A stretch of DNA of 21,869 nt from a virus. The translations under genes and the position numbers were made by a program. Of this stretch, positions 3,412 to 12,087 are shown piece after piece (within the stretch, counting starts at the first letter, position 1; each line of letters starts with the position of its first letter). The notes below the pieces were generated by a model. The model was not told the DNA's origin and ran no database searches. It saw nothing but the letters and a program-made list of their open reading frames with translations. Location of the stretch: positions 1-21,869 of the IMG/VR virus record IMGVR_UViG_3300025636_000046, one strand, 5' to 3'.

Positions 3412-3445
3412 ATACGTATAAGTTAACAAACAAAGAGGGCAAACA

Positions 3446-3816: not shown

Positions 3817-3844
3817 GTTATTATAAACAAACAAGGGCAAACAA

Positions 3845-4111: not shown

Positions 4112-4132
4112 ATATATAACAGTTAGACAAAC

Positions 4133-4147
4133 GCTAAGGAGCATAGC
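4133..4147 (+). promoter_or_regulatory. Shine-Dalgarno box in a hairpin loop
   Basis: GCTA-AGGAGCA-TAGC can fold into a 4-bp stem with the Shine-Dalgarno box in the loop, 2 nt before the ATG at 4150. The identical 15 bases recur before the genes at 11373 and 11812. Confidence 0.5.
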
Positions 4148-4149
4148 AA

Positions 4150-4455
4150 ATGAAATTCGTTATATCAACTCAGTACTTAGAAAACTATGGCGCTCACTGT
4201 GAGGACGGCAAGTTCTCCAGCGGTAATGCTTACTGGAAGATGAAGGGCGGCACCGATTACATCGTGAGCGGCTTGGAGCGTGTCCAGGATGCGATTGCAT
4301 TCGTAATGGCCAAGTTCGGTGTTAATGATATCTCCCAGAAGGAGTATCCAGTAGCGTTCCGCAGCTATGATGAGTGGGAGACAGAGTTGGACAGTTATGA
4401 CGTTGAATACGCTGACTTCATTAGATCAACGGCCAGGGAGGTTAGTCCAAATTAG
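4150..4455 (+). CDS. Conserved phage-type early protein, unknown function
   Basis: A 101-aa acidic protein. Its N-terminus (MKFVISTQYLENYGAH, then YWKMKGGTDYIV around residues 28-39) resembles small proteins I have seen in large marine and enterobacterial phages, but no function is known to me. No catalytic motif or membrane segment is visible. The leader is the AGGAGCA hairpin type. The gene ends PN-stop, where the AAT TAG is part of the next promoter module AAATTAGGGGTTGACA. Confidence 0.75.
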   Translation: MKFVISTQYLENYGAHCEDGKFSSGNAYWKMKGGTDYIVSGLERVQDAIAFVMAKFGVNDISQKEYPVAFRSYDEWETELDSYDVEYADFIRSTAREVSPN

Positions 4456-4487: not shown

Positions 4488-4524
4488 ATAAGAGTAAGTT
4501 AAACAAATAAGAGGGCATCTTAAA

Positions 4525-5492: not shown

Positions 5493-5506
5493 GCAAGGGG
5501 CATTGC
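5493..5506 (+). promoter_or_regulatory. GGGGCA box in a hairpin loop
   Basis: GCAA-GGGGCA-TTGC folds the Shine-Dalgarno box into a hexaloop 2 nt before the ATG at 5509. The identical leader occurs at 9729-9742. The loop can pair with the TGCCCT hexaloops, with one G-U pair. Confidence 0.5.
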
Positions 5507-5819: not shown

Positions 5820-5852
5820 ATATACAGTTAAACAAACAAAGGGCACTATAAA

Positions 5853-6868: not shown

Positions 6869-6915
6869 GGACGGCGAAGCAGGTTGTGCCCTCGACCTAT
6901 AAGACTTCGTCGTCC
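6869..6915 (+). ncRNA. TGCCCT stem-loop, copy 1 (after the tRNAs)
   Basis: An outer 11-bp stem (GGACGGCGAAG with CTTCGTCGTCC, one G-U) encloses an inner 6-bp stem AGGTTG/CGACCT (one G-U) capped by the hexaloop TGCCCT at 6887-6892. The internal loop is C on the left and ATAAGA on the right. The loop and the two-stem layout match three stem-loops at 10794-10961, although stem sequences differ. It should be transcribed with the tRNAs from the promoter at 6239. The loop is the reverse complement of the AGGGCA boxes in the array leaders. Confidence 0.72.
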
Positions 6916-7730: not shown

Positions 7731-7764
7731 TGTTATATAGGGGTTAACGCAAGAGGGCAACACA

Positions 7765-8270: not shown

Positions 8271-8301
8271 GTATATAAGTTAACAAAGAAGAGGGCACTT
8301 C

Positions 8302-8702: not shown

Positions 8703-8737
8703 GTATGTATAGTTAGAACAAACGGAGGGCAATCCAA

Positions 8738-9273: not shown

Positions 9274-9295
9274 GTATATAAGTTAAACAAAACAA

Positions 9296-9405
9296 AGACT
9301 GTTTTTAGCTGCACACAAGTAGCAACCAAACGTAACTAGCAATGTCAATAAGGCTAGGTGAGGGAGGAAGTGTTGATAGGTGTGTTAGCAAGCTACAAGC
9401 AGTCT
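9296..9405 (+). promoter_or_regulatory. Folded ~110-nt insertion in a cassette leader
   Basis: This leader keeps the usual start (AAGTTAAACAAA) and end (AAAAGGGCA), but about 110 nt are inserted between them. Nested pairing is visible: AGACTG (9296) with CAGTCT (9400), TAGC (9306) with GCTA (9392), and GCACAC (9311) with GTGTGT (9380). An inner hairpin pairs CTAGC (9336) with GCTAG (9353). This suggests a cis-acting RNA such as a riboswitch or protein-binding element. It matches no riboswitch class I know. Confidence 0.5.
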
Positions 9406-9425
9406 TAAACAAAAGGGCAAATAAT

Positions 9426-9704
9426 ATGCAACCAACATTTTTTGAAGCAACAAAAGAACAAAAGAAACTAGCCGACCTAGGTCGCAGCATGATGGACTGG
9501 AGTGAAGAGTACGGTAAGCTGCATGGCTTGAAGATGGTCACAGACAATGGGCTGCGTATGCTAAATGATATTAGCCACGTAGGTTATATGTTGACCACAG
9601 TAGGCGCTACCTTTGGTTCAAAGGAAGTAGACTTTGATGCTGCTGAACGAAAATTGATTGTTGACTTTGCAAACAAATTGGTTGACATCGAGCGCAAAGA
9701 CTAG
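9426..9704 (+). CDS. Early cassette protein with structured leader, unknown function
   Basis: A 92-aa, mostly helical protein. I chose the ATG at 9426 (MQPTFFEATKEQKK) because AAAAGGGCA lies 6 nt before it; a longer frame from 9342 would run through the folded leader. Two helices flank a Gly-rich middle (TTVGATFGSKEVD). The end (LVDIERKD) is encoded by the DNA of the next promoter, whose TTGACA overlaps these codons. No family is recognised. Confidence 0.7.
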   Translation: MQPTFFEATKEQKKLADLGRSMMDWSEEYGKLHGLKMVTDNGLRMLNDISHVGYMLTTVGATFGSKEVDFDAAERKLIVDFANKLVDIERKD

Positions 9705-9710
9705 TATACT
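9682..9710 (+). promoter_or_regulatory. Cassette promoter embedded in the 3' end of a gene
   Basis: TTGACA, 17 bp, TATACT. The -35 box and nearly all of the spacer are coding sequence of the upstream gene. It drives the AAA+ ATPase gene and its stem-loop-bearing 3' region. No clear spacer dyad is seen. Confidence 0.82.
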
Positions 9711-9728: not shown

Positions 9729-9742
9729 GCAAGGGGCATTGC
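9729..9742 (+). promoter_or_regulatory. GGGGCA box in a hairpin loop
   Basis: GCAA-GGGGCA-TTGC, identical to the leader at 5493-5506, 2 nt before the ATG at 9745. The same transcript ends in three TGCCCT stem-loops that could pair with this loop (one G-U). Confidence 0.5.
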
Positions 9743-9744
9743 AC

Positions 9745-10740
9745 ATGACAAACGTTATGATTAAAGAAGGCACATATAAGATCCGTGGCAAAGACGTAGA
9801 CCTAAATGGTATGGTGTTTCCACTAGTAGAAGAATTTAAAGTAGGAGCCAAGGGCGGCTACGTAACAGTAGACGGTCGCGCAATTGCAGGCTTTCCAGAT
9901 CGCAATATTAAGATCACTGTTAGCGATGCTGCCGGTTACACAGCAACGTCTGAGGCGACTGCTAACATTGAAGAAACAGATGAGGAGACAGTAGACCGTA
10001 TCCGTGAACGCTTTGACATGTTGGGTGACATGACTAAGGCAGTGCGCAAAGGTGATGTGCGAGCAATGATCGTAAGTGGCCCTCCAGGTGTTGGTAAGAG
10101 TCACGGTGTTGAGCAAGTACTAGATCGTTATGCATTGATGGAGAGCCTAGGCGGACGACAGACACACGAAGTAATCAAAGGCGCTATGAGTGCAATTGGT
10201 CTTTACTGTAAGCTGTACAAGAACGCAGACAAAGGCAAGGTAGTGGTGTTCGATGACTGCGATAGTATCTTCAACGATGAACTAAGCTTGAACATTCTTA
10301 AAGCTGCGCTAGACTCTAAGAAGACTAGAACTATTAATTGGAATACAGATAGCTTCAAGCTGCGCAACGAAGGTGTACCAGATAGCTTTAAGTTTGAAGC
10401 AAGCGCAATCTTTATCACTAACTTGAAGTTTGATAAAGTCAAAGGTAAGCTGCGTGAGCACTTGGAAGCACTCGAGTCGCGCTGTCACTACATGGATCTA
10501 ACTATTGATACTGACCGTGAGAAAATGTTACGTATTAATCAAGTAACCAGAGACGGTATGTTGGATGCATACAAGATCAACGATGATACCAAAGAAGAGA
10601 TTATGGAATTCATCGATATTAATAAGAACAAGCTGCGTGAACTGTCACTGCGTACAGTACTAAAGATTGCAGACTTGGCCGTAGCATTTCCAGACAAATG
10701 GGAAGCGATGGCAGAGAATACTGTGATGCGTCGAGCATAA
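9745..10740 (+). CDS. AAA+ ATPase
   Basis: A 331-aa AAA+ protein. Walker A is GPPGVGKS at residues 112-119, Walker B VVVFDDCD at 166-173, sensor 1 IFITN at 222-226, and a possible arginine finger is R246 in LESRCHY. The N-terminal 80 residues form a separate, beta-rich domain. Phage ATPases of this size may load or remodel protein-DNA complexes, but the role here is unknown. I took the ATG at 9745 because the upstream TTG is inside the leader hairpin. It is the largest gene of the early array, and its 3' region holds the stem-loops at 10759-10961. Confidence 0.85.
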   Translation: MTNVMIKEGTYKIRGKDVDLNGMVFPLVEEFKVGAKGGYVTVDGRAIAGFPDRNIKITVSDAAGYTATSEATANIEETDEETVDRIRERFDMLGDMTKAVRKGDVRAMIVSGPPGVGKSHGVEQVLDRYALMESLGGRQTHEVIKGAMSAIGLYCKLYKNADKGKVVVFDDCDSIFNDELSLNILKAALDSKKTRTINWNTDSFKLRNEGVPDSFKFEASAIFITNLKFDKVKGKLREHLEALESRCHYMDLTIDTDREKMLRINQVTRDGMLDAYKINDDTKEEIMEFIDINKNKLRELSLRTVLKIADLAVAFPDKWEAMAENTVMRRA

Positions 10741-10758
10741 CGCTCCGCTGATCAGTAA

Positions 10759-10961
10759 GGACAGCAGCACACCCTGTGGTGTTGTCCAACATAGAGCTAG
10801 ATGTAGGATGTGCCCTCGTCCGAACTAGCTCGAACACCGAAGCAGCCCACAAGAGCTGTAAGGTGCTAAGGTAGTAGAATTGGAGTGTGCCCTCACTCTA
10901 TATACTACGATTGAAAGGCCCTAGCAGGATGTGCCCTCGTCCAACGCTAGGGCTTTTTTTT
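10759..10961 (+). ncRNA. Stem-loop array with three TGCCCT hexaloops
   Basis: Five stem-loops follow the ATPase gene. 10759-10787 has stems GGACA/TGTCC and ACACC/GGTGT with loop CTGT. 10794-10831 has outer GAGCTAG/CTAGCTC and inner GGATG/CGTCC with loop TGCCCT. 10835-10865 has CACC/GGTG and CAGC/GCTG. 10871-10908 has GTAGTA/TACTAC and GGAGTG/CACTCT with loop TGCCCT. 10918-10953 has GCCCTAGC/GCTAGGGC and GGATG/CGTCC with loop TGCCCT, followed by eight T. The stems vary but stay paired while the hexaloop is constant, which indicates RNA-level selection. It is probably the 3' untranslated region of the ATPase mRNA, or an RNA processed from it. Confidence 0.75.
10918..10961 (+). terminator. Intrinsic terminator formed by the last TGCCCT stem-loop
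   Basis: The 8-bp outer stem GCCCTAGC/GCTAGGGC stacks on the GGATG/CGTCC hairpin and is followed by T8 at 10954-10961. It should end the transcript from the promoter at 9682, giving the RNA a defined 3' end, as in many small RNAs. Confidence 0.8.
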
Positions 10962-11011: not shown

Positions 11012-11044
11012 GTATATAAGTTAACAAAGCAAGAGGGCAAACAA

Positions 11045-11339: not shown

Positions 11340-11355
11340 GTATATAAGTTAACAA

Positions 11356-11370
11356 GCTAAGGAGCATAGC
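11356..11370 (+). promoter_or_regulatory. Shine-Dalgarno box in a hairpin loop
   Basis: GCTA-AGGAGCA-TAGC, identical to 4133-4147 and 11795-11809, placed 2 nt before the ATG at 11373. Confidence 0.5.
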
Positions 11371-11372
11371 AA

Positions 11373-11738
11373 ATGACTACTATCAACACATCAACTACTG
11401 TATTAAACGACTACACTGTAGAAGACCTGCAGACTATTAAGGCAGCGGCACTACAGCATGCACGTGATGCAGCCGAAGCAAGCGTTGCTGCCAACGGTGA
11501 ACTAGGCTACTGTGGCTTTGCTTGGGTTAACATCTACGGTATCAAAGGCAACACCAAGCTGGGCAAGCGTATGAAGCAAGCAGGCTTTGAGAAAGACTAC
11601 ACTGGAGCATATTCAATATGGAACCCAAGCGGACTAGGTACGCAGTGTATGCTCACTAAGGAAGCTGGAGCGTATGCAGCAGCTAAGGTGTTTACAGCAG
11701 CAGGCTTTACAGCTTACGCAGGTAGCAGAGCAGACTAA
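11373..11738 (+). CDS. Ala-rich early protein, unknown function
   Basis: A 121-aa protein. The N-terminal 45 residues are a Thr-rich lead-in and an Ala-rich helix (AAALQHARDAAEASVAANG). The middle has GYCGFAWVNIYGIKGNTKLG (about residues 50-69), and the C-terminus is Ala-rich again. It resembles uncharacterised phage proteins, but I know no function. The AGGAGCA hairpin leader sets it apart from the AGGGCA class. Confidence 0.72.
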   Translation: MTTINTSTTVLNDYTVEDLQTIKAAALQHARDAAEASVAANGELGYCGFAWVNIYGIKGNTKLGKRMKQAGFEKDYTGAYSIWNPSGLGTQCMLTKEAGAYAAAKVFTAAGFTAYAGSRAD

Positions 11739-11776: not shown

Positions 11777-11794
11777 GTATACACATAAACAAAC

Positions 11795-11809
11795 GCTAAG
11801 GAGCATAGC
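11795..11809 (+). promoter_or_regulatory. Shine-Dalgarno box in a hairpin loop
   Basis: Third identical copy of GCTA-AGGAGCA-TAGC, 2 nt before the ATG at 11812. Confidence 0.5.
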
Positions 11810-11811
11810 AA

Positions 11812-12087
11812 ATGAATACAGTACTAACAGCAATCAAAGCAATCCACAAAGCAGACAGCAATGAACTAAAGCAGATCATCCAAGCAGTCAAGCTACAGCA
11901 AACGTTCCTTGCAAAGCAGAGCGCTCGCACGTTTAGTGTAGGTGATGCGGTACAGTTTAAAGGGCGCGGCAACCGTACTGTAGTAGGAACAGTAAGCAAG
12001 GTTAATCCTAAGACTATTGTAGTAGACAGCCCTACACAAGGACGCTGGAAGGTCACAGCTAGTATGCTTAGTGCATTGGCTGCATAG
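11812..12087 (+). CDS. Small protein with SH3/KOW-like C-terminal domain
   Basis: A 91-aa protein. Residues 1-38 form a helix (LKQIIQAVKLQQTFLAKQSA). Residues 41-85 look like a small SH3/KOW-type barrel (FSVGDAVQFKGRG, then VVGTVSKVNPKTIVVD and GRWKVTASML), a layout seen in several large-phage proteins and typical of nucleic-acid-binding modules. It is basic overall, in keeping with RNA or DNA binding. Specific function is unknown. It is the last cassette of the array and is followed by a terminator. Confidence 0.77.
   Translation: MNTVLTAIKAIHKADSNELKQIIQAVKLQQTFLAKQSARTFSVGDAVQFKGRGNRTVVGTVSKVNPKTIVVDSPTQGRWKVTASMLSALAA

Follow-up and report, generated by a model that had tools for sequence, protein, structure and literature searches.

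The window analysed here is the complete 21,869-base IMG/VR virus record IMGVR_UViG_3300025636_000046, with gene starts in it and in its relatives set by simple ORF rules. Among isolated phages, the jumbo phage PA5oct and its kin are closest by replicative helicase (53% identity), and contigs related to the window reach 275 kb, so the window probably represents only part of a large tailed phage's genome. Genes that include the helicase and the primase lie on the minus strand at 13–21.7 kb, and 3.4–12.1 kb is occupied by an array of small genes, most of them preceded by a strong sigma70-type promoter of their own. A host scan of genomes returned ten binned MAG contigs of mixed taxa, from which no host call was possible, and comparison of the array DNA with isolated phages gave chance matches only, no cultured phage with the array being found.

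Within the small-gene array, on the plus strand at 9745–10740, lies the gene for an NrdC.10-like AAA ATPase (phrog_1250, E 1.2e-82), whose T4-like homologues are annotated nrdC.10 and whose freshwater homologues differ at the N-terminus. Its sigma70-type promoter (plus strand, 9682–9710) reads TTGACA-17-TATACT. A promoter scan of the window found no promoter-like site just upstream of the hairpins that follow the gene, and they would be driven by the ATPase promoter as well. The preliminary description had suggested looking for a short RNA ending near 10961; a terminator is indeed present there, but judged from the sequence the stretch is the 3' untranslated region (3'UTR) of the upstream ATPase gene, not a free-standing RNA gene.

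The three stem-loops with a TGCCCT hexaloop first noticed in this 3'UTR, and the one noticed upstream, were all recovered on the plus strand. The first (10794–10831, loop 10811–10816) has an outer stem GAGCTAG/CTAGCTC and an inner stem GGATG/CGTCC; the second (10871–10908, loop 10888–10893) pairs GTAGTA/TACTAC outside and TGGAGTG/CACTCTA inside. The third element (10918–10961) is a stem-loop at 10918–10953 (loop 10932–10937, outer stem GCCCTAGC/GCTAGGGC, inner stem GGATG/CGTCC) running into eight T at 10954–10961, and forms the intrinsic terminator of the ATPase transcript. The fourth hairpin (6869–6915, loop 6887–6892) stands just 3' of a tRNA-Arg at the end of the tRNA cluster and has no T-run behind it. 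Over both strands of the window TGCCCT occurs 18 times against 7.4 expected, a count reached by none of 100 shuffles, and GTGCCCTC occurs five times against 0.29 expected. The region 10741–10961 folds at -92.5 kcal/mol (z = -6.2 relative to shuffled sequence). An Rfam search of the window gave only tRNAs above the gathering score; the match to NsiR1 at 10872–10961 (26.5 bits) lies below that family's gathering threshold of 39.

Two further hairpins accompany these. One, at 10834–10866 within the array (GAAGCAGCC...GAGCTG), has no anti-Shine-Dalgarno (anti-SD) loop and is also present in L011, L031 and L048. The other is the first hairpin of the array, at 10759–10788, whose loop region CACACCCTGTGG is shared with L018 and L031 and whose complementarity to the SD box is limited to CCCT.

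The window's own early genes have SD boxes complementary to this loop. As the preliminary description stated, AGGGCA, the exact complement of TGCCCT, precedes nine early-gene starts, all on the plus strand: at 3436–3441 (ORF 3446), 3834–3839 (ORF 3845), 4512–4517 (ORF 4525), 5840–5845 (ORF 5853), 7754–7759 (ORF 7765), 8726–8731 (ORF 8738), 9414–9419 (ORF 9426), 11034–11039 (ORF 11045), and, before ORF 8302, within the box GAGGGCAC at 8291–8298, where the eight-base match could be confirmed against GTGCCCTC. GGGGCA takes its place before ORF 5509 (5497–5502) and before the ATPase ORF 9745 (9733–9738), where pairing with the loop includes one G-U; the window's ATPase leader thus offers its own 3'UTR loop only 5 nt of Watson-Crick pairing plus that G-U.

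Other leaders of the array have features of their own. A leader GCTAAGGAGCATAGCAAATG common to three genes (4126–4150, 11354–11373, 11793–11812) makes up a second SD class, in which GCTA/TAGC could pair and place the SD in a hairpin loop. The leader of ORF 9426 (9277–9425) is about 150 nt long, contains GAGGGAGGA and could pair over a long range (AGACTG...CAGTCT); it may be a structured regulatory leader. Downstream, a 91-aa protein encoded at 11812–12087, with homologues at this locus in marine as well as freshwater relatives, gives a weak match to a phage ProQ C-terminal-like domain (E 0.0097, below cut-off) and is a possible RNA chaperone for the array.

In marine relatives of the window (ATPase 64–88% identical) several hairpins with GCCCTC in the loop are found nearly always 3' of the ATPase gene. 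The motif appears there in at least three settings, the hexaloop GTGCCCTC, a nine-base loop CCGCCCTCA and larger loops with GCCCTCACG, so that the constant hexaloop originally proposed holds for the window's four hairpins and gives way among relatives to GCCCTC as the invariant part. The claim that the stems differ yet stay paired fared better. It was assessed in 29 hairpins, including the window's three and the one after the tRNAs, which were picked by the loop GTGCCCTC and not by stem pairing. Stem cells changed on both sides number 34, against 9.7 +- 2.6 by shuffling; 92.4% of stem cells are paired, against 68.3% after shuffling; and the covariation score is 0.629, against a maximum of 0.171 for slid partners.

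A model of the hexaloop hairpin, whose top match is the third hairpin at 30.5 bits (itself a training sequence), gave in 1.0 Mb no match off the arrays save the hairpin after the window's tRNAs, and none in freshwater contigs. Most off-array hairpin candidates are SD boxes on the opposite strand; a few, inspected briefly, lie elsewhere. Among homologues from T4-like phages, Vibrio phage VAP7 and the PA5oct/Paride group, no comparable hairpin array was found; in PA5oct (L301, 5955–5997) and Paride (L462) the short gap 3' of the gene contains ATGCTACT, which is complementary to the leader of that gene over 8 nt but sits in a stem, and could be a relic or chance.

Across relatives, the loop and the SD box change together. 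Marine relatives combine the loop TGCCCTC with the box GAGGGCA; freshwater relatives have hairpins at the same place (for example CCGATTCGCTCCCGG) with the loop TTCGCTCC and leaders carrying GGAGCGAA; and a third clade has CATTCTCACTT with AGGAGTGAGAACC. Other loop/SD pairs are TTCTCACT/AGTGAGAA, TAGCTCC/GGAGCTA, TTGGCTCC/GGAGCCAA and GAATGCTCCT/AGGAGCATTC, and further relatives add TAGCTCCT with AGGAGCTA, TCTCCTAG with CTAGGAGA and TACTCCGTTA with TAACGGAGTA. A loop that changes independently of the SD box had been named beforehand as the finding that would speak against such targeting; when it was looked for across clades, the loop was found to track the box instead, which supports the proposal that the loops are aimed at the phage's own early-gene SD boxes. 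This also bears on the suggestion that the hairpins are repeated sites for a phage or host protein reading GCCCUC or the hairpin shape. The highly conserved UG-loop-CG context of the hexaloop type would suit such a protein, as would the extra conserved hairpin without the motif inside the array, but in clade after clade the loop sequence follows the SD box, and the complement persists through wide variation in loop size and surrounding stem. Since it shifts together with the SD, in loops differing in size and shape, we consider a protein-binding site very unlikely.

The correspondence is specific to the clade. By 7-mers, marine loops match 24% of marine leaders and fewer than 1% of freshwater leaders, and freshwater loops match 27.5% of their own leaders and 0.6% of marine leaders, so that loop-by-leader matches form a block-diagonal matrix; some loops could nevertheless pair across clades, as a freshwater loop with a third-clade leader (-11.5 kcal/mol). 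Loop complementarity reaches past GGAG into the SD extension peculiar to these phages, which disfavours the idea that the RNA sponges host ribosomes or mRNAs. Immunity specificities are likewise clade-specific, and RNA from a resident phage might silence early genes in a relative that arrives later and shares the code; in a first infection, however, the same RNA would hit the phage's own early genes, and we think superinfection exclusion a highly improbable function.

Many genes of one phage might inflate such figures if each were counted; a per-gene test therefore compared, for the ATPase gene only, the leader with the 3'UTR of the same phage, in 85 phages remaining after dereplication at 82% identity, with complements counted anywhere in the 3'UTR (the matches lie in a predicted hairpin loop in many, not all, cases). 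A complement of at least 7 nt is present in 48 of the 85, as compared with 10.5 for dinucleotide-shuffled 3'UTRs, 11.7 for the 3'UTR of a phage with another leader type, 9 for same-sense matches and 6 for the gene's own coding sequence. At 8 nt or more, 27 phages match, and the corresponding controls give 2.9, 3.5, 3 and 1. The complement is centred at -13 to -4 in the leader, on the SD and its 3' side. With clusters at 75% identity the mean own match is 6.68, against 5.56 +- 0.16 when permuted, the maximum of 5000 permutations being 6.22. An SD on the opposite strand was considered as a source of the anti-SD sequence and is possible in only one of the 48 matched phages. These results weigh on the most ordinary explanation, that the array consists of stabilising 3' hairpins and a terminator which resemble an anti-SD as any pyrimidine-rich loop does. 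The last hairpin is in fact a terminator, and some complementarity between core SD and anti-SD is always present, but the own match far exceeds that with other leader types (48 against 11.7, and 27 against 3.5) and covers the clade-specific extension past GGAG, leaving this explanation extremely improbable.

On the ATPase tree, matched phages show 14 or more switches of leader type, a count that is indicative because the tree is a quick one with many weak branches. Close neighbours can differ: L348 (AGCCTAG with CTAGGCT) and L313 (GGAGCATTC with GAATGCTCC) are sisters, and L309 (GGAGCTA with TAGCTCC) adjoins both. In a separate collection, a hairpin loop of L468 (48% identical) is matched over nine bases (AGAGAGGTT with AACCTCTCT), and L463, L464 and L466 are also matched. 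The remaining 37 of the 85 relatives have no 7-nt match. The clade L058–L084 keeps an ATPase leader of the freshwater type, GGAGCGA, and has no hairpin array, so leader and hairpin can be uncoupled; either the RNA was lost there or the SD code is older.

The special SD is not spread evenly over these genomes. It is enriched near the array in ten large contigs (Fisher p 6e-5 to 3e-15), and the boxes cluster in an early array of about 10 kb around the hairpins, in contigs as long as 275 kb. The 275-kb contig carries it on 17 of 38 genes within 12 kb of the array and on 4 of 318 elsewhere; in freshwater contigs the figures are 13/29 near the array against 0/152 elsewhere, and 16/36 against 1/151. 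The rest of each contig uses mostly AGGAGA or AAGGAA as SD, and in several large contigs a promoter-like site stands just 5' of most boxed genes. In the simplest form seen in relatives, an ATPase gene is followed by one hairpin and a terminator and the match is mainly to the leader of that gene, which makes autoregulation the probable ancestral state. Genes other than the ATPase match slightly above background in the smaller clades, or show no excess, suggesting that the ATPase gene was controlled first and a regulon was added afterwards.

Control could also be in cis only, the 3'UTR loops pairing, as in the icaR mRNA of S. aureus, with the leader of the same ATPase mRNA, and the box shared by other genes being the leader of a duplicated cassette and no target. 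Across clades no partner is as constant as the ATPase leader, and other genes in several clades lie little above background. Three observations stand against an exclusively cis-acting element: 20–27% of leaders in the marine and freshwater clades match the loops by 7-mers, several loop copies are present although one leader requires just one loop, and one copy lies after the tRNAs, distant from the ATPase gene. We regard cis-only control as improbable, and think it likely, with fair assurance, that the array is an anti-SD RNA of the 3'UTR which began as an autoregulator and in the window's clade expanded to a multi-loop repressor of an early regulon.

Such a 3'UTR anti-SD RNA would work as follows. 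Host RNA polymerase, starting at the early promoter of the ATPase gene, would read through the hairpins to the terminator at 10961, and the RNA would accumulate, either intact or as a 3' fragment after processing. Its loops would each present six to eight bases (UGCCCUC) to the SD box and its clade-specific 3' extension (GAGGGCA), so that every loop could pair with an early leader, hiding the SD from the 30S subunit and perhaps creating an RNase III substrate. The ATPase and the other early genes sharing the box would be translated less, and genes with ordinary AGGAGA leaders would be spared. The same code would have spread to a regulon in the window's and the freshwater clades, the hairpin multiplying in the window's clade. 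From these comparisons we strongly infer the loop–SD pairing, and infer repression, action in trans, timing and the role of RNase III. Loop–leader pairing is predicted at -12 to -14 kcal/mol, against -6 to -9 kcal/mol for the leader and the 16S anti-SD, so abundant loop RNA could compete with 30S binding, and a match that takes in the clade-specific part past GGAG would leave host and late phage genes untouched; pairing of six to eight bases within a closed hexaloop may be sterically limited. We give about even credence to a broader proposal, a private SD code in which a clade-specific extended SD on the early set is silenced in trans by a matched multi-loop RNA made with one member of that set, running the early-to-late change, with code and loops diverging together as an RNA-only counterpart of T4 RegB.

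If true, this would be the first phage RNA regulator, as far as we found, shown by co-evolution to target a regulon-specific SD, a naturally occurring orthogonal SD/anti-SD code that exists in many parallel versions, and a possible, testable account of early-gene shut-off in phages of this size. It would also place a regulatory RNA beside nrdC.10, an early gene family of unknown function, and the matched loop/leader pairs are a ready series for studying RNA-pairing specificity at ribosome-binding sites.

Several known systems share parts of this design. Alphaproteobacterial 'cuckoo' RNAs have C-rich CCUCCUCCC hairpin loops of anti-SD character that match the general SD. The array resembles them in its C-rich anti-SD loops, but its loop is UGCCCU, not CCUCCUCCC, and matches a regulon-specific extension. 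The term 'cuckoo' RNA is used in a passage of PMC10746234. The T4 endoribonuclease RegB cuts the GGAG of early SDs, ends the early phase and autocontrols its own gene (PMC3014915); it is a functional analogue only, a protein nuclease whereas the array is RNA. Term searches of the open-access literature found no description of such a phage element, in agreement with the preliminary description, which knew of no phage-encoded multi-loop anti-SD RNA, and a 2025 review of phage sRNAs (PMC12197685) yielded no passage matching the terms searched. Close in principle is the icaR mRNA of S. aureus, in which UCCCCUG in the 3'UTR pairs with the mRNA's own SD, blocks initiation and attracts RNase III (PMC3868564). 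The same relation, a 3'UTR complementary to the SD of its own mRNA, is found in 48 of 85 relatives at 7 nt or more against 10–12 expected, but icaR is a single chromosomal, non-phage gene with one motif and has no array, private-SD regulon or co-evolving loop/SD series. In Vibrio cholerae, OppZ and CarZ are autoregulatory sRNAs derived from 3'UTRs, which are released by RNase E and inhibit translation of their own loci (PMC7398697). An RNA from the array would likewise pair with the transcript of its own locus, and the sequence has a terminator hairpin followed by T8 at its end; OppZ and CarZ differ in being non-phage, in having no multi-loop arrays and in not being shown to track an SD code. 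Repression, as for the icaR 3'UTR and OppZ/CarZ, is the effect to be expected here. The array resembles icaR and OppZ/CarZ, and what is new is the phage setting and the array with its co-evolving private SD code.
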